Positions 5,011 through 30,760 of a stretch of 39,626 nt of DNA are shown in pieces. The notes under the pieces are model-generated. The model had not been told where the DNA came from. It saw nothing but the letters and a program-made list of their open reading frames with translations, and ran no database searches. Both the position numbers and the translations under genes were made by a program. This DNA comes from Prolixibacteraceae bacterium (lineage in GTDB: Bacteria > Bacteroidota > Bacteroidia > Bacteroidales > Prolixibacteraceae): contig JAQIBQ010000025.1 in the NCBI GenBank assembly GCA_027859005.1, positions 1 to 39,626 of the forward strand, in the 5' to 3' direction. The number at the start of each line of letters is the position of its first letter. The first letter of the stretch is position 1.

Positions 5011-5107
5011 CCTTTTTCTGACGATCTCAAAAAGAGATACCCACTAAATAGTTTTCCAATTTTTTTAGCTACTTTGCTGCTGGGATATTATAAAATTATT
5101 AGTGGCA

Positions 5108-8100
5108 ATGCAAAGGGTGTTTATATACATACTTCTATTATTTGCTGTTAGTGCTGTTGGACAAAATCAAAGTGAAAACTTTATTAGTTTCAATACAAGT
5201 AATGGGAAATTAATGCATAACTCGGTTGAAGCTTTTGCCAGAGATCAATTAGGTTATGCATGGGTAGGCACAAATTTTGGATTGTACAGACTTGATGGCT
5301 ACCAAACGGTTGAATTCAAAAACGACCCCTCAAATCCTAAATCTCTATCAAGTAAGTTCATTAAAGCCTGTTGCACCGATTCCGATGGAGACCTTTGGGT
5401 AGGAACAATTGGTGGTGGGTTAAATAGGTTTATCCGCGAAACAAATCAATTTATACATTTCGTACCTAACGATTCAATCAATAGCATTAGTGGCATCAAT
5501 ATCTCAGGAATAGTTGAAGATAAAAAAGGAAATATATGGATAGGAACCATTGGAAATGGCATCAATAAATATAACAAAAAAACAGGAAAATTCACCCACT
5601 TCAAACTTGAAAACTACGAAAAAGACAACTGGATTAGCTCTAATGTTAATGCTTTATTTTGTGATAACGAAGGCAATATTTGGGTTGGCGAAAATCAAAG
5701 TGAAATTTTCAAAATTGATGGATTAAGTCATAAAATTACATACTACGGTATACTAGAAAAAAGCAAGTCAGAAGCTGCTAAAGTAGGAGCGATAACTGGA
5801 ATTTCACAAATGAAAAATGGGAATATTCTTTTTACAACTTGGAAAGGAAACTTGTATCAACTAAATCCTTTATCCGACAAGTATATTTCTGTTTTTAAAA
5901 CTTCGGAATATTTTGAAAACTCAATTTTAACAGATATTGTAATTGATTCAAAAAACCAGATTTGGATTAGTACCTGGAACAATGGATTGTTTAAAATAAA
6001 TACAGAAACAACTGAAAAGAAACGGTATAAAAAAAATATTAAAAAACTAAATACGTATAACTCAACTGCCATAAATAGTTTGTACATCGATAACAATCAA
6101 AACCTTTGGACTTGTTTTCAAAACAATGGAATTGGCATATTACCCTTAAAAGAGAAAATGATAAGAACACTTCCTTTTAAGAATGAGATATTTGACTACA
6201 TCAATGCCTATTCTATTGTTCAAGATAAACAAAATAACATATGGGTTGGAACAAGGGGGCAGGGTTTATGGATGTACAATTTGAAAAATAATGAACAAAC
6301 AAACTATCTTGCCGAGAACTTTAATGGCCTAAATACCAACTCAATACTGTCCGTTAAACAAAGTAGCGATGAAAAATTGCTGATTGGCACAGACGGTACT
6401 TTTCTAAGTATTTTTAACCCTCTAACAAATTCATTTCAACAAGTTGAAGGCAATGCTGACGATTGGAGTAATGCCGTTTTTTCAATTGCCGATAATAGCG
6501 ATTACATTTTTGCTGGTACCTGGGGAGGAGGTATTAAAAAAATAGATAAAAAAGATTTAAGCTATTGCTCAATAAATTTTGATACAAAAGATCAATTCCG
6601 CAATTCAATATTCGATCTTGAATTAGTTGGCAATACACTTTGGGTTGCAAATATTGGTATTGGATTAATTAAATACAATATCGTAAATGACACTTATATC
6701 ACGTATAAAAACTCAATTGAAACTCCAAATTTTCCTAGCGAAAGAATAACCGATATATACATCGAAAACGATAATTCTATTTTACTTTCGACCGAAGGAG
6801 CAGGATTGTATCAATTCATCCCTTCATCAAGTACAATAAATAATGTTTTCAATGAATACGGAATTGAAAGTAAAACAGTTCAAGCAACAGTAGTAGACGG
6901 CAATAACAACCTTTGGATAACAACCAACTCAAATATTTTACATGTTGATACAAACACAAAAAATATATATACCTTCAATAAACACAATGGTCTAGCAAGT
7001 AATCAATTCAATAAATCGGCCTTATATTTCGATAAAACAAAAAACAGAATTTATACTGGAAGTGCTGAAGGCGTAAACTTTTTAGATGCCAATAAAATTG
7101 TTATCGATTCAATTGTAAATAAGGTTATAATTACCCAGTTAAGTATTATGGGTGAGAATATTTCGAGTCCAAACCTAAAGAATATTTATAAAACGATAGA
7201 TGTTGCAGATACGATTCACTTATACCACAAAGAAAAAATAATTACCATCAATTTTTCATCAATGGAATTTACTCCTTCAATGAAAAGTCGATATTATTAT
7301 CAACTTGAAGGATTTAACAAAGACTGGAATGAAACCAGCTATTCTAAAAATTTTGTACAGTATACCAATCTATATCCTGGAGAATATACCCTACATGTAA
7401 AAACATGCAACAGTGATGGAATAAGTAACTCCGATGTAACTTCAATAAAAATATTAGTTCATCCCGCTTTCTGGCAAACACTTCTATTTAAAATAGCTAT
7501 TGTTGTTCTTGTAATTCTTTTAGTATTTCTATATTCCCACGAAAAATACCAATCGTTAATTAAATCCCAAAAAGAACTTGAGCTGAAAATTGCCGAACGT
7601 ACCTACGAAATCACAGATCAAAAGGAGCAAATAGAGAAGCAAAACCACGAGCTAGAAACTGCAAATCAAACAAAAGATAAATTCTTCTCAATAATTAGTC
7701 ATGATTTAAGAAACCCATTGGCTTCAATAAACCAAATGGCACAAGTCTTATCAATGCAGTTCAAAACGGCATCGGAAGAAAGAAGATTAAAATACCTTGA
7801 GATATTAATAAAATCATCGGGAAATACATTAGAACTACTCGACGATTTATTGATTTGGGCCCGCACTCAAACCAATCGGATTAAAATTAAGAAAAACAGC
7901 TACCCTATTGATGAATTATTTTACGAAGTGCTAAGCCATTGCTATCCACTGGCTGAAAAAAAGAATATTGAATTAAAAATACCACTACATACCAATAAAA
8001 AAGCTTTTGTAGATAAAAATACAATTGCAACAGTACTTCGAAACTTAATTACCAATGCCATTAAGTTCTCGCCAACAAATAGCACTATTGAAGTTAAAGT

Positions 8101-8347
8101 TCGCGAAAAAAACGAAAGCTTAATCATTTGCATTTCCGATCAGGGAATTGGCATTAGCCCTCAAGAAATTAAAAAATTATTCAAAATTGAAAACATTTAC
8201 TCGAAGGAAGGAACATCGGGCGAAACAGGAACGGGTCTTGGATTAGTTCTATGTCAAGAATTTTTGGCGTTGAATAATGGAAGCATTTGGGTTGAAAGCG
8301 AAGTAAACAAGGGAAGTACTTTCTGTTTTAAAATTGAAAAAGGCTAA
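5108..8347 (+). CDS. Two-component-regulator-propeller sensor histidine kinase (Reg_prop x n, Y_Y_Y, TM, HisKA, HATPase_c)
   Basis: Repeated 'GNIWIGT.GNGINKY' propeller blades; 'FKIAIVVLVILLVFLYS' TM; 'FFSIISHDLRNPL' H-box; 'TGTGLGLVLCQEF' G-box; ends after HATPase_c, no receiver or AraC HTH. ORF track starts at GTG 5102; ATG at 5108 possible. Confidence 0.9.
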   Translation: MQRVFIYILLLFAVSAVGQNQSENFISFNTSNGKLMHNSVEAFARDQLGYAWVGTNFGLYRLDGYQTVEFKNDPSNPKSLSSKFIKACCTDSDGDLWVGTIGGGLNRFIRETNQFIHFVPNDSINSISGINISGIVEDKKGNIWIGTIGNGINKYNKKTGKFTHFKLENYEKDNWISSNVNALFCDNEGNIWVGENQSEIFKIDGLSHKITYYGILEKSKSEAAKVGAITGISQMKNGNILFTTWKGNLYQLNPLSDKYISVFKTSEYFENSILTDIVIDSKNQIWISTWNNGLFKINTETTEKKRYKKNIKKLNTYNSTAINSLYIDNNQNLWTCFQNNGIGILPLKEKMIRTLPFKNEIFDYINAYSIVQDKQNNIWVGTRGQGLWMYNLKNNEQTNYLAENFNGLNTNSILSVKQSSDEKLLIGTDGTFLSIFNPLTNSFQQVEGNADDWSNAVFSIADNSDYIFAGTWGGGIKKIDKKDLSYCSINFDTKDQFRNSIFDLELVGNTLWVANIGIGLIKYNIVNDTYITYKNSIETPNFPSERITDIYIENDNSILLSTEGAGLYQFIPSSSTINNVFNEYGIESKTVQATVVDGNNNLWITTNSNILHVDTNTKNIYTFNKHNGLASNQFNKSALYFDKTKNRIYTGSAEGVNFLDANKIVIDSIVNKVIITQLSIMGENISSPNLKNIYKTIDVADTIHLYHKEKIITINFSSMEFTPSMKSRYYYQLEGFNKDWNETSYSKNFVQYTNLYPGEYTLHVKTCNSDGISNSDVTSIKILVHPAFWQTLLFKIAIVVLVILLVFLYSHEKYQSLIKSQKELELKIAERTYEITDQKEQIEKQNHELETANQTKDKFFSIISHDLRNPLASINQMAQVLSMQFKTASEERRLKYLEILIKSSGNTLELLDDLLIWARTQTNRIKIKKNSYPIDELFYEVLSHCYPLAEKKNIELKIPLHTNKKAFVDKNTIATVLRNLITNAIKFSPTNSTIEVKVREKNESLIICISDQGIGISPQEIKKLFKIENIYSKEGTSGETGTGLGLVLCQEFLALNNGSIWVESEVNKGSTFCFKIEKG

Positions 8348-8367
8348 TAAAAGCACTATATTGGGTC

Positions 8368-11300
8368 ATGGTATTCTTCAGAATAAGGGTTAAAATACTT
8401 TTACTTGTTTTCATTACCTTTTTTGTAGTAAGGGTAAGTGGAAACAACAAACAGAAAAGTTTCTTGAGTTTTAATACCGAGAATGAAATGCTTATGCACA
8501 ATTCTGTAGAAACAGTTGTGCGAGACAGCTTTGGGTACATTTGGGTTGGAACCAATTATGGATTAAACCGTTTAGATGGACATAAAACAATTAACTATCT
8601 TTCAGATCCAACAAACCCAAACTCAATAAGCAACAGTCATGTAAAAGAACTTTTTGTTGATTCAAAAGGTAGGCTGTGGATTGGAACAGTAAGTGGAGGA
8701 TTAAATCGATTCAATTATTCCAATAACACTTTCATACAATACTCACCATACGATTCCATTATATCAAAAGCTGGGTTAAATGTACCTGCAATTACCGAAG
8801 ATTTGGAAGGAAATATATGGATAGGTACCGTTGGAAAAGGAGTAAGTAAATTTTATCCCGATTCGGGCGTGTTTCAAAACTTCGACTTAGAGCTTTTCGA
8901 TCCATTAATTCAGGAAAATACAAACATTAGTAATTTACATTGCGACAAAAAAGGAAACATATGGGTTGGTTTTGATTTTGATAGAAATGGGATATATAAA
9001 ATTGATGGAAAAACCTATGAAATTACATTTCATGGTCTTACTACCGAAACAACTGATTATTTAAATGTTGGGGCCGTTACTGGAATTGCCGAGCAAAAAG
9101 ATGGAACACTTCTTTTCACAATATGGAACAGTCAAATTTTCAAGCTAAATCCTGAAGTTGATGAACGAATTAAACTTGTTCTTGAAAAAAACATATTTAA
9201 CAATTCGCATTTAACTTCAATTGTTATAGACGAAGATGACAACATTTGGATTAGCACATGGGAAAATGGACTTTACAAATTTTCACCCGATTTTAAAGAA
9301 GTTCAACAATATTGTAAAAACGATTTCGACCTATCAAGTCTTAGCTCTAATTCAATTAACGATTTATATATCGATGAGAATAACCTTTGGATCTGCCTTC
9401 GAGAACAGGGTTTAAATTTATTGTCGCTAAACAATAAAATATTTAGCAAAGTAAACACGCTTCAGGTTTCTGCCTTTAAAGAAATTGACGCACATTGCTT
9501 CACTACCGACAAAGTTGGAAATATCTGGATTGGTAGTCGTGGACAAGGATTATGGAAATATTCACCAAGTAATGGAAGTTTAAAAAACTATAATAAGCCG
9601 AACTATAAAAGTTTACTAAACAACAATATCTTAAGCATTAAATACAGCAACGATAGTATGCTTTGGATAGGAACCGATGGTGATTTTATTGCTGCATTTA
9701 ATACTAAAAAAGAAGAATTCAAATTTGTACCACATCACGAAGGCGACTGGAGTTCGGTGTATTGTATTGAAGAAACTGAAGACTACTTATGGTGTGGGAC
9801 TTGGGGCGCAGGATTGAAAAAAGTTGATAAAAAAACCCTGTCTTATACCAGTATTAATTTTGACGTTAAAGACCAATATAGAAACAGCATTTTCGATATC
9901 GATATTGTTGAAGATGATATATGGATGGCAAACGTAGGCATGGGTTTAATAAATTACAATATACCTAACAACCAAATAAATTATATTTATCAGTACCCTA
10001 ACTTAAGCGGTAAATTTCCAAAAGAAAGTCTGAATGATATATACATTGAGAACCCCTCAAGTTTTTGGTTATCAACTGCGGGTGGTGGTTTGTTAAACTA
10101 CAACCCCAACACCTACAAAATTGAAACTACAACTACCGATAACGGCCTTTCGAGCAACGTTATTCAAGCCATTGCAATTGATAATAATAAAAACCTTTGG
10201 ATTAGTACAAATACTGGTATAAATCTATACAATCGGGAAAAAAACGAAATAGCTACATTTTATAAGCATAACGGGTTAATTATAAATCATCTTAATAAAT
10301 CGGCGTTATTATTCAGCCCCATCGATAATCAGCTTTACATAGGTTCACCAAAAGGTATTAATACCTGTAATACAAACAAGGTTGAGCTAAATCAAAACAC
10401 AAATCCAGTTGTTTTAACCCAACTAGCTGTAAACGAGAAAAATATTACAATTAAGGATTCAGATGTTTTAAACCAACCTATTGAACTTGCCAAAAAAATA
10501 AAACTAAAACACGATCAGAAAATAATTAATATCGGATTTTCATCAATGGAATTTAATCCATCGTCGAAAAGCAAATACTATTATAAACTAGAAGGATTTA
10601 AAGATAATTGGACCGAATTAGCTCATTCATCAAATCACGTTCAATATACCAATCTCGATCCAGGAAATTATACTTTTAAAGTAAAGGCCAGTAATAACGA
10701 TGGTATTTTTCACCCAATAGAAACCGCTTTAAAAATTACCGTTAAACCATCTTTCTGGCAAACCATCTTGTTCAAAGTTTTGTTGGTTTTAATAATTCTA
10801 ATTATAGCGGCATTATTCTTCTACTTACGTTACAAAACATTAATAAAAAATCAATTAAAATTAGAAGAAACCGTACAAGAACGAACAATAGAAATAAACA
10901 AACAAAAAGAACACATTGAGCAACAGAAATCGGCACTTGAACTGGCCAATCAAACAAAAGACAAATTCTTTACACTTATAAGTCACGACTTAAAAAATCC
11001 TATAAGTATTATCGATCAATTCCACGAGCTATTATTGCTCGAACACGAATCCATATCTAAAGAAACAACTCTAAAATATTATCAATTATTGAAGAAAACT
11101 TCGAATCAAACCCTACAACTACTCGACGATTTATCCATGTGGGCACAAACACAATCGAAACGAATTACCATAAATAAGAAGCATATTGATGTTGCCAAGT
11201 TAATTAAAACAAATTTTACTATTTGCGAATCAATTGCATCGAATAAAAACATTAAACTGCAACAAACAAAAAATATTTACCAAACAGTTAATGCCGACGA

Positions 11301-11631
11301 ATCTACTTCGCTTACAATAATAAGAAACCTAATAACTAATGCCATAAAATTTTCAAATGAAAATAGCACGATAAATGTGAATGCTATAGCCAATGATAAA
11401 TACATAACCATTTGTATTGAGGACTCGGGTATTGGGATGTCGCAAAAAGTGAAAGAAAATTTATTTATTACTGATAAAATAATTTCACGTGAAGGCACCT
11501 TAGGCGAAAAAGGTTCAGGCATTGGCCTTGTTTTATGTAAAGAATTTGTGAACCTTAACGGTGGTGAAATATGGGTCGAAAGTGAAGAAAACAAAGGATC
11601 AACTTTTTATTTCACGCTCGAAAAAGCATAA
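8368..11631 (+). CDS. Paralogous two-component-regulator-propeller sensor histidine kinase
   Basis: Same architecture and collinear motifs as 5108-8347; 'FFTLISHDLKNPI' H-box; 'GSGIGLVLCKEF'; no receiver/HTH. Confidence 0.9.
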   Translation: MVFFRIRVKILLLVFITFFVVRVSGNNKQKSFLSFNTENEMLMHNSVETVVRDSFGYIWVGTNYGLNRLDGHKTINYLSDPTNPNSISNSHVKELFVDSKGRLWIGTVSGGLNRFNYSNNTFIQYSPYDSIISKAGLNVPAITEDLEGNIWIGTVGKGVSKFYPDSGVFQNFDLELFDPLIQENTNISNLHCDKKGNIWVGFDFDRNGIYKIDGKTYEITFHGLTTETTDYLNVGAVTGIAEQKDGTLLFTIWNSQIFKLNPEVDERIKLVLEKNIFNNSHLTSIVIDEDDNIWISTWENGLYKFSPDFKEVQQYCKNDFDLSSLSSNSINDLYIDENNLWICLREQGLNLLSLNNKIFSKVNTLQVSAFKEIDAHCFTTDKVGNIWIGSRGQGLWKYSPSNGSLKNYNKPNYKSLLNNNILSIKYSNDSMLWIGTDGDFIAAFNTKKEEFKFVPHHEGDWSSVYCIEETEDYLWCGTWGAGLKKVDKKTLSYTSINFDVKDQYRNSIFDIDIVEDDIWMANVGMGLINYNIPNNQINYIYQYPNLSGKFPKESLNDIYIENPSSFWLSTAGGGLLNYNPNTYKIETTTTDNGLSSNVIQAIAIDNNKNLWISTNTGINLYNREKNEIATFYKHNGLIINHLNKSALLFSPIDNQLYIGSPKGINTCNTNKVELNQNTNPVVLTQLAVNEKNITIKDSDVLNQPIELAKKIKLKHDQKIINIGFSSMEFNPSSKSKYYYKLEGFKDNWTELAHSSNHVQYTNLDPGNYTFKVKASNNDGIFHPIETALKITVKPSFWQTILFKVLLVLIILIIAALFFYLRYKTLIKNQLKLEETVQERTIEINKQKEHIEQQKSALELANQTKDKFFTLISHDLKNPISIIDQFHELLLLEHESISKETTLKYYQLLKKTSNQTLQLLDDLSMWAQTQSKRITINKKHIDVAKLIKTNFTICESIASNKNIKLQQTKNIYQTVNADESTSLTIIRNLITNAIKFSNENSTINVNAIANDKYITICIEDSGIGMSQKVKENLFITDKIISREGTLGEKGSGIGLVLCKEFVNLNGGEIWVESEENKGSTFYFTLEKA

Positions 11632-17237: not shown

Positions 17238-18824
17238 ATGGATTTATTTACAAATGTCTATTTCTCATTCTTCCTAATTGTAACCCTAGGTTTTCTTATT
17301 GGTAGGATCAAGATAAAAGGTATTTCACTCGATGTATCGGCAGTAATTTTTATTGCCTTGGTGTTTGGACATTATGGTGTTATTATTCCCAAAGATTTTC
17401 AACAAATAGGACTTGTACTCTTTATTTTTACCATAGGAATACAAGCTGGTCCAGGATTTTTTGCATCTTTTAAAAAGCATGGAAAAGATTTAGCAATACT
17501 AGCATCTACTTTAATAATTACTGCTGGCTTAGTTACTGCATTAGTCGTTTATATATTCGATATCGACATGAACATAGGTATCGGTTTATTAACTGGAGCA
17601 CTAACAAGTACGCCCGGGTTAGCTGCTGCAATCGATACAACTGGCTCTCCATTGGCATCAATTGGCTATGGAATTGCCTATCCTTTTGGGGTTATTGGGG
17701 TTATTCTCTTTGTAAGTTTCATGCCTAAATTCATAAAAGCAAACATTAAAAATTCAGAAGAAGAATATGAGACAAGTATAAAGTCTGATTTTCCAGAAAT
17801 AGAAAAAGCAAACTTTATTGTTGAAAACGAAAATGTGGTAGGAAAAACAATTGCAGAACTACGCATTCGATACATGACAAAAGCAGTAGTTTCGCGTGTA
17901 ATGCACAACGAAACAGCTATTACTCCAACTCCAACAACAATTCTGCACAAAGGTGATATAATTAAAGCCGTTGGCGATAATGAGGCGCTTGACCGAATAA
18001 AACTTCTTATTGGCCAGAAAACTACAATTGAAATTCCGTTGTCTACGAAATACGATATACGAAGAGTGCTTGTTACCAATAAAGAATATGTAAATAAAAC
18101 CATTAAGCAACTCAATTTATTGGGAAATTATGGAGCTACAATTACACGCATAACACGTTCTGGAATTAACATTTCGCCAACACCAGCTTCACGTATTCAG
18201 TTTGGTGATAAATTAATGATTGCCTGTGGAACCGAGAACATGAAACAAGTTGTTAATATATTTGGCAACGACGACAGAAGACTTTCCGATACCGATTTTT
18301 TACCCATTGCATTAGGAATTATAATTGGTGTATTAATTGGAAAAATTAATATTTCAGTAGGTAGCTTTAGTTTCAGTCCTGGCTTAACAGGAGGTGTTTT
18401 GTTTTCGGGCTTAATGTTGGGCCGTATAGGTAAAACGGGGCCAATTCTTTGGACTATGACAAGCGCTGCGAACCAACTTATTCGTCAGCTAGGCTTATTG
18501 TTTTTTATGGCTGCAGTGGGTACATCGGCTGGAGCAAAGCTTGTAGAAATATTCATGGAAAACGGAGTAAGTATGTTTATTGCTGGCGCTATTATTACAG
18601 TGGTTCCAATGATAGTTGCAACCCTAATTGCAAAGTTTGTTTTTAAATTGAATATACTAACTTTATTAGGAGCACTAACAGGAAGTATGACAAGTACTCC
18701 AGGTCTTGCAGCTGTTGATAATATGACAGAAACCAATGCTCCAAGCGTTGCCTATGCCACAGTATATCCGTTGGCAATGGTATTGCTAATTATTGTTGTA
18801 CAAATACTGGGAACAATGATTTAA
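17238..18824 (+). CDS. AspT/YidE-YbjL-type putative transporter with two RCK_C (TrkA-C) domains
   Basis: Duplicated membrane halves with GALTSTPGLAAAID / GSMTSTPGLAAVD; central soluble TrkA-C-like repeats. Confidence 0.88.
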   Translation: MDLFTNVYFSFFLIVTLGFLIGRIKIKGISLDVSAVIFIALVFGHYGVIIPKDFQQIGLVLFIFTIGIQAGPGFFASFKKHGKDLAILASTLIITAGLVTALVVYIFDIDMNIGIGLLTGALTSTPGLAAAIDTTGSPLASIGYGIAYPFGVIGVILFVSFMPKFIKANIKNSEEEYETSIKSDFPEIEKANFIVENENVVGKTIAELRIRYMTKAVVSRVMHNETAITPTPTTILHKGDIIKAVGDNEALDRIKLLIGQKTTIEIPLSTKYDIRRVLVTNKEYVNKTIKQLNLLGNYGATITRITRSGINISPTPASRIQFGDKLMIACGTENMKQVVNIFGNDDRRLSDTDFLPIALGIIIGVLIGKINISVGSFSFSPGLTGGVLFSGLMLGRIGKTGPILWTMTSAANQLIRQLGLLFFMAAVGTSAGAKLVEIFMENGVSMFIAGAIITVVPMIVATLIAKFVFKLNILTLLGALTGSMTSTPGLAAVDNMTETNAPSVAYATVYPLAMVLLIIVVQILGTMI

Positions 18825-21897: not shown

Positions 21898-22926
21898 CTA
21901 TTCCCAATCCAAAATGATTTTGCCACAATTACCAGCTTCCATAATGTCAAATGCCTGCTGAAAATCATCAGCCTTCATTCGATGTGTAATAATAGGAGTT
22001 ATATCTAAACCGGTTGTAAGCATCATCTCCATTTGATACCATGTTTCGAACATTTCGCGTCCGTAAATGCCTTTAAGAGTAAGCCCTTTAAAAATTACTT
22101 TGTTCCAGTCAACCGTTGTATTGGGAGGCAAAATTCCAAGTAACGAAACCTTTCCTCCGTTGTACATGTGATCTATAAGTTGGTTAAATGCAACTGCCGA
22201 TCCTGAGCATTCGAGACCGATATCGAAACCAGCAATCATCCCCATTTTTTCCATTGCAATTTCAAACGAATCGGTTCGAGGATCTATTACTTGGTCGGCT
22301 CCCATTTTTAGCGCCAACTCGCGGCGGTAGGGGCTAAGATCGGTTCCTAATACATTGCGTGCTCCGGCAAACTTACAAATTGCTGCAGCCATAGATCCAA
22401 TAGGACCTCCAATCCCTGATATCATAATATCTTCGCCTAACAACGGAAAAGAAAGTGCGGTATGGGCAGCATTTCCGAAGGGATCCATAATGGAAACAAT
22501 CTCATCGGAAATTCGTGCATCCACTTTAATTACATTACTAACAGGCACAGCTACATACTCGGCAAAACCACCATCACGATGCACTCCAATTCCAACTGTA
22601 TAATTACAAATGTGTTGCCTTCCTCTACGACAATTTCTACAATGGCCACAAGCAATATGCCCTTCGGCAGTAACCCGATCACCTATTTTATATTGGTGAA
22701 CTTCTGATCCCAATTTTACAATTTCTCCAACATATTCGTGACCAATTATTAAAGGCGTTTTTATGGTTTTCTGTGCCCAATTGTCCCATTTATAAATGTG
22801 TAAATCAGTACCACAAATAGCCGATTTTTTAATTTTTATCAATACTTCGTTGGCCCCAACTTTGGGAATTGGAAGATCTTCCAACCATAAACCTCGTTCA
22901 GGTTTTGTTTTTACAATTGCCTTCAT
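21898..22926 (-). CDS. tdh: L-threonine 3-dehydrogenase (zinc MDR family)
   Basis: SAICGTDLHIYKWDNWAQKTIKTPLIIGHEYVGEIV; CGHCRNCRRGRQHIC; IMDPFGNAAHTALSF; KGIYGREMFETWYQMEMML. Confidence 0.92.
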   Translation of the reverse strand: MKAIVKTKPERGLWLEDLPIPKVGANEVLIKIKKSAICGTDLHIYKWDNWAQKTIKTPLIIGHEYVGEIVKLGSEVHQYKIGDRVTAEGHIACGHCRNCRRGRQHICNYTVGIGVHRDGGFAEYVAVPVSNVIKVDARISDEIVSIMDPFGNAAHTALSFPLLGEDIMISGIGGPIGSMAAAICKFAGARNVLGTDLSPYRRELALKMGADQVIDPRTDSFEIAMEKMGMIAGFDIGLECSGSAVAFNQLIDHMYNGGKVSLLGILPPNTTVDWNKVIFKGLTLKGIYGREMFETWYQMEMMLTTGLDITPIITHRMKADDFQQAFDIMEAGNCGKIILDWE

Positions 22927-27073: not shown

Positions 27074-28462
27074 TTAGTCTTCGCGCCAAACCGACTTCAA
27101 TTCATAAACTTCCAAGTTTTCAACTAAAATTTCGCCACCCATGGTGAAGAGTTCGTATTTAAGCGATTCTGGTTTTGGGGCAAATGGATAACTAACAACG
27201 TACCTACCTCCATCGATAAACAATTCGATTGATGAACGATCAACAATAATTTCAATTTCCATTTTATTGTTTTCTGGCTTATATTCAAAGTTGGTTTGCA
27301 AAAAACTAAGCATCGATTTTTTTACATTGTATGTAATATCTACTCCAATATCATCTCTTCCTGAACGAATAAGAAAACCAAATTTGTCACAATTTAGAAT
27401 ATCAATTGTTCCCTTGAAATGAAATGCTTTCCCTTTCAATTTTGACAATATATTATTCTTAATACCTGGGTATATTTTCTTATCCTCGAAAAGATATGAT
27501 TTGGTGTATAACTTCACAATCTCATCAATTGGTTTTTGCAACAATTCAACGCTATTTTCAAACTGATGTAAGTAAACCTCTACCGGAAAACAAAGCTGTC
27601 CGTTTGCAGGCATATCTGCCAACTGATCACCTATCATTCCTGACACAGCTAGTGTTCGCTCACCCTCAACATCGTTGAAAAATACAGTGCTTCCTACTTC
27701 TTTACTATGGTTTGAGCGAAGAACTGAACTCGTGAGATTAAATACCTTTCCATCGAATTCACCAAGCATATAAGTTCCGTTTTCAGTAGCCAAAACCCAG
27801 CGTGTATCATCCTGTTTACGATCAACTGGCATTTCAAAGAATTGTGGAAATCCAAATAAATAATTAAACGTTGAAGTTTGTTCCCAATTTATTCCGTCGT
27901 TAGAATTGTGAATGTACATGGTAGTAGATTCACGCTCAAATGCAACCATTACCCATTTTTGACTTGCCTGGTGCCAAAAAACGTATGATTCACTTTTTGA
28001 TAACTTTTCAGTTCCAGCTGTTTCTACTTCATTCTCCCAAGTACTTCCATCTTTACGTTTAACACTATAAATGCCATCGTTCCATCGGTTAACCCAAGCA
28101 TGCAGTTCACCCTCTTTTGAAACAACTGAACCACTCCATGGAACCTGTTCCATGGAATCAGTTTCAGTTTCGGGCTGAGTAATCACAATATCTTGTTGAT
28201 CCCACTTTAATAAATCGGTACTGGTGGCTAATCCCCAATTTACATAAGCATTCATAAAATTATGTGGGTTGTATTGATAAACCATTTGATAGGTAGAATC
28301 TTCAATCCAAACTGAAATTGGATTTCCCATCCTATTAACAGCTGGTGAATAATGAAACTGAGCCCTATAGATTTCATCGTATACTTTTACTTCGTCTTTT
28401 TTCTTTGGAAAAGCTACAATTGCAACTAAAAGTAGAAATACTAAAAATAGGTTTTGTTTCAT
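27074..28462 (-). CDS. Secreted glycoside hydrolase family 32-like protein, catalytic motifs not conserved
   Basis: Signal peptide; 'QFHYSPAVNRMGNPISVWIEDSTYQMVYQYNPH...WGLATSTDLLKW'; 'VFWHQASQKWVMVAFE'; 'TRWVLATENGTYMLGEFDGKVF'; C-terminal 'IEIIVDRSSIELFIDGGRYVVSYPF'. Confidence 0.82.
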   Translation of the reverse strand: MKQNLFLVFLLLVAIVAFPKKKDEVKVYDEIYRAQFHYSPAVNRMGNPISVWIEDSTYQMVYQYNPHNFMNAYVNWGLATSTDLLKWDQQDIVITQPETETDSMEQVPWSGSVVSKEGELHAWVNRWNDGIYSVKRKDGSTWENEVETAGTEKLSKSESYVFWHQASQKWVMVAFERESTTMYIHNSNDGINWEQTSTFNYLFGFPQFFEMPVDRKQDDTRWVLATENGTYMLGEFDGKVFNLTSSVLRSNHSKEVGSTVFFNDVEGERTLAVSGMIGDQLADMPANGQLCFPVEVYLHQFENSVELLQKPIDEIVKLYTKSYLFEDKKIYPGIKNNILSKLKGKAFHFKGTIDILNCDKFGFLIRSGRDDIGVDITYNVKKSMLSFLQTNFEYKPENNKMEIEIIVDRSSIELFIDGGRYVVSYPFAPKPESLKYELFTMGGEILVENLEVYELKSVWRED

Positions 28463-28566
28463 TGGTATAGGTTCAAAAAGATTGGATACAAATATAATTT
28501 AAAATCGATGACCGGAGGTATCAAAAACCAGCTTAAGGGTTAAGAATACTTAACACACTTTAATAG

Positions 28567-29229
28567 CTACCACTCTATTGGCTCAAAGCCTTTTGCATTC
28601 AAATATTCATTTGTTTTGCTAAAGTGATGATTCCCAAAAAAGCCTCTCGAAGCCGACAATGGCGATGGATGTACCGATTGTAACACTAAATGCTTTGTAG
28701 CATCAATTACTTCTCCTTTTCGTTGCGCATGAGCTCCCCAAAGTAAAAAAACTACATTCTCTTTCTTCTCAGACAGGACTTTAATAACAGCATCGGTAAA
28801 AGTTTCCCACCCCTTTTTTTGATGCGAACCAGCCATATGAGCCCGAACAGTTAATGTTGCGTTAAGTAACAATACTCCTTGTTTTGCCCAAGATGTTAAA
28901 TCGCCACTTTGAGGAATAGGAGCAGCAATATCTCCATTAATTTCCTTAAAAATATTCCGTAACGAAGGTGGAAATTTAATCCCTCCTTTAACGGAGAAAC
29001 ACAAACCATGTGCTTGATCTGGACCATGATATGGGTCTTGTCCAATAATTACAACTTTCACATTGTTGAAAGGACAAAGATTAAAAGCATTGAAAATTTC
29101 TTTCCGAGGAGGAAAAATTTGCTGTGTTTGATATTCGTTTTTTACAAATGCAGAAAGCTCCTTAAAATAGGGTTTATCAAATTCTTCATTAAGAATTTCT
29201 TTCCACGACTGTTCAATTTTTACATCCAT
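28567..29229 (-). CDS. ung: Uracil-DNA glycosylase family 1
   Basis: [70 protein letters not shown]; likely start MDVKIEQSW at 29229. Confidence 0.95.
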
Positions 29230-29293
29230 TGCAGTTCTGTTTTGAGTTTCTAAAAATACAAATGATAGTTGCGAACTACAATTGTAAAATACA

Positions 29294-30760
29294 TCAAATG
29301 CTAATCCAGTCTTCAAGCGTTTTGCTATCGAAATTTTCGCTCTTATGTTTGAAGTGATTCTGGTGCCTGTCGTAGGTGTATTCCTTTTCGTAAGAAGTAA
29401 AATTAGCAACAATGTCTTTTAAGGCTGTAATCATTAATTCAACTTCACGATCAGTTGTTGTCGGATGTAAAGACCATCGCACCCAGCCAGGTTTAACCGA
29501 AAGGTCGCCATGAGTAATTTTATCAGTAATCTCATCCGATTGATCTTCCTGCATTTCTAACAAGAAATGTCCATAAGTTCCAGCACAAGCACAACCGCCA
29601 CGAGTTTGAATGCCGTACAAATCGTTCAACATTTTAACCAATAAATTGTAGTGCAATCCATCGATATAAAATGAAATTACGCCCAACCTATCACGATGTT
29701 GGTTCGCAAGTACTACAACCTCGGGGATTTCATCAATTCCATTAAATGCAAGTACTAAAAGTTCTTCTTCGCGAGCACGAATGTTTTCAATTCCCATTTG
29801 ATCTTTCAACTGAAAACAAAGTGCTGTTTTAATGCTTTGTAAAAATCCTGGAGTACCTCCGTCTTCGCGCACTTCAATACTATCAACATATTTATACTTT
29901 CCCCAAGGATTGGTCCAATCTACTGTACCACCACCAGGATTGTCGGGAGCTTCACTTTTGTACATCGATGCGTCGAAAATTAAAACACCAGAAGAACCAG
30001 GTCCACCCAAAAATTTATGAGGAGAAAACAAAATGGCATCAAGTTTTTCCATTGGATCCTTAGGGTGCATATCAATTAAATCGTAAGGAGCCGAAGCCGC
30101 ATAGTCTACAAAAATAACACCGCCGTATTCGTGCATAACACACGCCAAATCGTGAATAGGAGTTCTTATGCCTGTAACATTCGAGCAAGCTGTAAAAGAA
30201 CCAATTTTAAACTCTCGGTCTTTGTATTTTTCGAGTTCATTTCGTAAAACTTCAGTGTCAACAAGAAGTCCTTCGCCAGGAGGAAGAACAACTACATCGG
30301 CATTGGTTTCATACCACGATGTTTGATTTGAATGATGTTCCATATGCGTTAAGAATACAACAGGCCGAACACGATCCATTTGGCAACCCTTATTCGATAC
30401 TTTCGTGCAGTATTTCAGCCCCAAAATACGTTGAAACTTATTTACAACAGCTGTCATTCCAAAACCGGCTGTAAGTATTACATCGTTATCACCAGCATTA
30501 ACATGAGTTTTAATAAATTTATGAGACCAATTATACGCCAAAGTCATTCTTGTCCCTGTTTCGCAAGTTTCGGTGTGAGTGTTTCCAACAAAAGGTCCAA
30601 GCTCTTTGGTTATTTTATCTTCAATGGGTTGATATAATCGTCCACTAGCAATCCAATCGGCATACACAATATTTTTTTCTCCAAAAGGTGATTGAAAAGA
30701 AGTATCAATACCTACAATATTTTCTCTGAATTTTGAAAAATAATTTTCGAGTTCGCTCAT
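29294..30760 (-). CDS. Aminotransferase class V-fold PLP-dependent enzyme (cysteine desulfurase-like)
   Basis: [46 protein letters not shown] (PLP lysine); [19 protein letters not shown]. Confidence 0.88.

Follow-up and report, generated by a model that had tools for sequence, protein, structure and literature searches.

A secreted GH32-fold protein with lost catalytic motifs, probably kept as a pseudoenzyme in a near-universal orthologous gene of its bacterial family

The window analysed here (the whole stretch of DNA, 39,626 nucleotides) carries on its reverse strand, at positions 27074 to 28462, a gene for a putatively secreted protein of 462 amino acids with the fold of glycoside hydrolase family 32 (GH32), in which the catalytic triad has been lost. 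We consider, with a probability of about two in three, that this protein is a secreted GH32-fold pseudoenzyme, the vertically inherited ortholog of a core gene present throughout the bacterial family, and that it would be kept for a non-catalytic role in the cell envelope.

The open reading frame is intact, and both GH32 domain models exceed their curated Pfam cut-offs, which makes the protein a member of this fold family: the N-terminal model (PF00251) scores 78.5 bits over residues 37-311 (cut-off 22.1) and the C-terminal model (PF08244) 60.6 bits over residues 317-454 (cut-off 21.9). These matches delimit the five-bladed propeller region (27530-28354, minus strand) and the C-terminal beta-sandwich region (27101-27514, minus strand). 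Inspection of the sequence revealed a probable signal peptide at residues 1-19 (28406-28462, minus strand), without a lipobox cysteine and with a hydrophobic helix at residues 3-17 that also appears in the predicted models. Among solved structures, the top match by sequence is the exo-inulinase 1Y4W. AlphaFold models built from shallow alignments of two and four sequences had mean pLDDT values of 47.7 and 56.8, sufficient for the fold and too low in confidence for pocket or side-chain geometry; over residues 321-420 of the sandwich, pLDDT is mostly 65-88. In a Foldseek search with a model of mean pLDDT 56.8, all of the 50 best matches listed were GH32 proteins, with TM-scores up to 0.71 (endo-inulinase). 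The predicted propeller-plus-sandwich architecture is secure, and the intact frame and GH32 fold signature recognized in a previous sequence-only reading of this DNA are both corroborated.

The positions of the catalytic motifs were fixed by alignment to 1Y4W and to 70 triad-bearing orthologs. The motif RMGNPIS (residues 44-50; 28313-28333, minus strand) replaces W(M/H)NDPNG, with N47 (codon 28322-28324) instead of the nucleophile Asp and G46 instead of Asn; SES (residues 157-159; 27986-27994, minus strand) replaces RDP, with S157 instead of Arg and E158 instead of the transition-state Asp; and GFP (residues 204-206; 27845-27853, minus strand) replaces ECP, with G204 instead of the acid/base Glu and F205 instead of the pocket-floor Cys. 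None of the three acidic residues of an active GH32 enzyme, the Asp of WMNDPNG, the Asp of RDP and the Glu of EC, is therefore present in the window protein. The sequence-only reading had proposed that all three motifs were lost and had located the N47 codon, and the alignment agrees on both points; RDP is altered as it had claimed, but the aspartate has become a glutamate, so that a carboxylate remains while Arg and Asp are gone. The loss is common to nine species of three genera, hereafter the window clade, and is therefore neither a chance event nor an assembly error. In this clade, the nucleophile position is occupied by N, S or A, the neighbouring Asn and the acid/base Glu are both replaced by Gly, and position 158 is Glu in eight members and Asp in one. 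Pseudoenzymes are defined by the absence of the conserved catalytic motifs of their enzyme family (PMC10211241), and by its motifs the window protein belongs among them. In the endo-levanase BT1760, the acid/base mutation E221A reduces activity about 4,000-fold (PMC6560043). The structure entry 7znr, titled 'Inactive D62N mutant of BT1760', corresponds to a nucleophile Asp-to-Asn change identical to that of N47. We infer that the window protein does not hydrolyse fructans.

Ten positions of the fructose pocket were mapped by alignment, in what we take to be the numbering of the Aspergillus awamori exo-inulinase, anchored on the 1Y4W alignment. Going from the exo-inulinase to the window protein, N40 corresponds to G46, D41 to N47, R188 to S157, D189 to E158, E241 to G204, C242 to F205 and the aromatic residue of the AW motif to G275, and W65 is lost; among the ten positions, only Q63 (Q57 of the exo-inulinase) is unchanged in all nine members of the window clade. 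The bottom of the pocket in BT1760 is formed by Asp41, Thr104 and Cys222 (PMC6560043). At the pocket floor of the window clade, Cys is replaced by Phe or Tyr, and the floor Ser (position 110) by Trp in eight of the nine members, the window protein itself having Ser. These changes should fill or distort the pocket, which makes the binding of fructose at this old site unlikely. In addition, five propeller residues are invariant specifically in the window clade: W123 and W127 (28082-28096, minus strand), which occur in less than 10% of active orthologs, E227 (27782-27784, minus strand), which is Gly in active orthologs, P108 and Q96. Other residues, located in the C-terminal domain, are invariant in both active copies and the window clade, namely D408, R409, E413 and G419 within DRSSIELFIDGG (27206-27241, minus strand) and the GGE of residues 442-444 (27131-27139, minus strand).

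The genes surrounding the GH32 gene in the window encode a uracil-DNA glycosylase, a class-V aminotransferase, a GPR1/FUN34/YaaH transporter, an iron-containing alcohol dehydrogenase and a histidine kinase. As had been stated before, no SusC/SusD pair, fructokinase or other glycoside hydrolase adjoins the gene; SusD, other glycoside hydrolases and fructokinase are absent from all window genes scanned, and the locus is thus no fructan utilization locus of the SusC/D type. Elsewhere in the genome, PF00251 has two other matches above the cut-off, which look GH43-type by eye, and a third below it, so the window gene is the only GH32 gene seen. The sequence TATATTTG (28489-28496, minus strand), located 34 bp upstream of the start codon, matches TAnnTTTG, presumably the consensus of the Bacteroidota -7 box; this motif precedes 60 of 113 orthologs, whereas mononucleotide shuffling would lead one to expect 11.2, and may be taken as a weak sign of expression.

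A match to the orthologous gene was detected in 137 of the 140 genomes and in all 23 genera of the family, a count that includes a few fragments or possible paralogs (e.g., in G003 and G131) and many draft assemblies; among good-quality genomes, the match is present in 102 of 103. Additional GH32-like genes are patchy, since two or more matched stretches occur in 52 of the 140 genomes. Profile searches extended the retention to diverged copies in four genomes of the genus g12, detected mainly by their C-terminal domain, and in the one g12 genome whose surroundings were examined (G018) the copy occupies the same site as in the genus g7. The propeller is hardly recognizable in the g12 orthologs (L175-L178), and their C-terminal domains contain near-identical runs such as ELRYYKKQNIYQCTGGEMAVKP; g12 would be the group of choice for work on the retained function. 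The orthologs are located among housekeeping genes and not within a fructan locus, with aroF-tyrA upstream and tdh-rsgA-uvrC, rnr-tetR or dxs-yceD-bactofilin downstream (several of these names being assigned by eye), and these blocks are common to active and inactive copies, which supports the vertical descent of the GH32 gene. The window retains two genes of such neighbourhoods at some distance from the GH32 gene: a tdh-like zinc alcohol dehydrogenase (21898-22926, minus strand), whose family directly adjoins the GH32 gene in active g18 and g3 genomes and in inactive g13, g17 and g1 genomes, and an Asp-Al_Ex permease (17238-18824, plus strand), whose family is found near the active ortholog in g11, g9, g10 and g5 genomes. 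Viral relatives of the window protein were found by neither protein nor profile queries.

In many genomes of the family, the GH32 gene is divergently adjoined by a gene encoding an 822-amino-acid protein with a T9SS sorting tail (L152:3113-5581 and equivalents), which shows no other Pfam domain above the cut-off and no relative of solved structure detectable by sequence. We rejected a functional link to this Por_Secre_tail neighbour, which is also present away from the GH32 gene and does not track its catalytic state.

The full set of Asp, Asp and Glu is present in 71 of the 115 genomes in which the three catalytic positions could be scored, and one or more of these residues are missing from the other 44; the single cases G082, G112 and G134 each rely on one draft genome. 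Trees were built after removal of the motif columns. Between the intact and non-intact states, a quick tree of 113 rows requires 12 changes; a careful tree, inferred under a mixture model from 53 representatives and strongly supported at most relevant nodes, requires 9, so catalytic residues have changed independently at least nine times. Parsimony gives no direction to these changes; we read them as losses because the outgroup is intact and the regain of catalytic residues is implausible. Members of the genus g8 (L082, L084, L096-L099, L153 and L154) have kept RDP and EC, and their nucleophile is replaced by Glu (once Gln), preceded by Phe. Some losses are therefore incomplete, and g8 would represent a partial inactivation or possibly an altered chemistry. 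The replacement of the acid/base Glu by Gly and that of the Asn preceding the nucleophile (N40) by Gly recur in several independent lineages. By a hand count, Glu-to-Gly accounts for 6 of the 12 acid/base losses (binomial p 0.008 under an arbitrary null of 1/6, both the statistic and its null being chosen after seeing the data), an apparent excess that is only a lead. The replacement of the lost activity by a second, active GH32 paralog is unsupported: extra GH32 matches are not more common in inactive genomes (12 of 44) than in active ones (28 of 71; Fisher p 0.23), and the other PF00251 hits of the window genome are GH43-like.

Selection was measured in inactive lineages other than that of the window, whose own nearest pair is saturated, with dN/dS estimated by the Nei-Gojobori method. 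In the two inactive pairs whose synonymous sites are not saturated, the values are 0.131 and 0.150; the other inactive pairs, with high dS, gave 0.038-0.170, and active pairs 0.033-0.088. Inactive copies are under purifying selection, with a constraint somewhat relaxed and far from neutral; taken from these other lineages and combined with retention, this indicates that the gene is maintained after the loss of catalysis. The two domains differ in this respect. The ratio of propeller to sandwich divergence has a mean of 0.68 in active pairs (5-95% range 0.55-0.82), the propeller evolving more slowly, and means of 0.97-2.21 in the inactive groups; the pairs are non-independent and the statistic was chosen after seeing the data. 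In g12, the sandwich is far better conserved than the propeller, with long invariant runs, and in some inactive pairs the divergence of the sandwich equals or exceeds that of the propeller. This is a relative shift of constraint in inactive clades and not a proof of sandwich function, because faster change of the propeller alone raises the ratio. At about 1.06, the ratio of the window clade means that its two domains are about equally constrained; considering also the clade-specific invariant residues of the propeller, both domains may matter, and the propeller may carry a function of its own.

These data bear differently on the other explanations that can be put forward. Slow neutral decay of a dispensable fructanase would account for the repeated loss of catalytic residues and for the relaxed constraint on the propeller, but a dispensable gene should have been deleted in some lineages, and the open frames, the near-universal presence, the dN/dS values well below 1 after the loss, the clade-specific invariant residues and the promoter-like motif all argue against decay, which we regard as the least probable of the alternatives. 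The sequence-only reading had favoured a maintained pseudoenzyme over decay, and this part of its proposal is strengthened by the nine species, the intact frames, the family-wide retention and the purifying selection seen in inactive lineages. That the loss is one of many, in a core gene of the family, was beyond the reach of that reading. It is hardly more probable that the protein regulates an active GH32 paralog or serves as its decoy, a role suggested for the defective invertases of plants, among which Nin88 reportedly activates cell wall invertases in an indirect manner (PMC3713406): no other GH32 was seen in the window genome (assembly about 91% complete), and extra GH32 matches are not enriched in inactive genomes, as indicated above.

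Two further alternatives involve sugar binding in the old pocket or a new active site. Tryptophans often stack on sugars, and the new invariant W123 and W127, together with the Q63 kept in all nine members, would fit a lectin in which the old fructose pocket binds sugar without cutting it. The other pocket positions have changed, however; the floor residues Asp, Ser/Thr and Cys (PMC6560043) have become N/S/A, Trp in eight of nine and Phe/Tyr, and the inactive lineages elsewhere altered the pocket differently. We therefore consider such a lectin unlikely, even though it is the strongest of the rival readings. The earlier suggestion of a re-purposed sugar-binding protein thus finds no support as regards the old pocket, with only Q63 of ten positions kept and bulky residues at the floor (F205 or Tyr, and Trp at position 110 in eight of nine members); sugar binding elsewhere, for instance on the C-terminal beta-sandwich, is possible. 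A new active site for a different substrate, formed by E158 and the clade-specific E227 or by another acidic pair, is less probable still. Position 158 is acidic in all nine members, E227 is a new invariant Glu that would align with a loop near the acid/base residue of other GH32 proteins (as judged from the 1Y4W alignment and knowledge of the family), and pseudoenzymes whose catalytic residues have migrated are on record (PMC10211241). E158 is nevertheless absent from other inactive lineages, which leaves the recurrent pattern unexplained, and the predicted propeller is too low in confidence to support the geometry of an E158/E227 pair.

According to the preferred reading, that of a retained envelope pseudoenzyme, the ancestor would have been a bifunctional protein, a secreted catalytic beta-fructosidase that also had a non-catalytic role in the envelope. 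This second role would predate the loss of catalysis, and lineages that no longer needed fructan cleavage would have lost the catalytic residues and retained the protein. With moderate confidence, we propose that the retained role is binding or structural and involves the C-terminal sandwich. GH32-type beta-sandwich domains bind fructan in CBM66 and in levan fructotransferase, which favours such a role; that of BT1760 does not, and folding has been proposed as its purpose (PMC6560043). The sandwich of the window protein may likewise be kept for folding alone. Extended to the whole family, the proposal becomes tentative, a little short of even: all members might depend on an older non-catalytic envelope function of the GH32-fold protein, and optional fructan cleavage would have been discarded about nine times, by partly convergent substitutions.

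The window protein shares its fold, its domain order and sequence similarity in both domains with GH32 exo- and endo-inulinases and levanases (1Y4W, 8i12, 3sc7) and differs from them in each of the catalytic motifs and over most of the fructose pocket. With triad-bearing orthologs (e.g., L069, L061 and L071) it shares the orthologous gene itself, the neighbours and the invariant residues of the C-terminal domain; unlike the window protein, these orthologs keep W(H/M)NDPNG, RDP and ECP and a propeller more constrained than the sandwich. Plant defective invertases such as Nin88 likewise belong to GH32, do not show the expected hydrolysis and have been proposed to act as regulators, but their catalytic triad is said to be unaffected in every case (PMC3713406), whereas in the window protein the triad itself is gone. 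A search of the open-licence literature returned no paper on GH32 pseudoenzymes.

Pseudoenzymes are well known, and it is frequently assumed that they originate from a gene duplication that preserves an active version of the enzyme. In this family, catalysis was lost in place, several times over, from an ortholog that in most genomes has no second GH32 copy beside it, yet the gene was kept family-wide; recurrent loss of the triad in place in a near-universal ortholog is unusual. The case distinguishes what it costs to lose catalysis from what it costs to lose the protein and, if our interpretation is correct, would provide a replicated natural experiment in the conversion of an enzyme into a pseudoenzyme, in which any culturable member of the family could serve to test the hidden second function. 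For these genomes, being annotated with GH32 should not be taken to mean that fructans are used.

Two other observations concern the window. The uracil-DNA glycosylase ORF (28567-29412), which begins with TTG, overlaps the upstream aminotransferase ORF (29294-30760), and its start is probably internal since relatives have about 220 amino acids. At 5102-11631, a tandem pair of genes encodes sensor histidine kinases of 1081 and 1087 amino acids with Reg_prop and Y_Y_Y domains.
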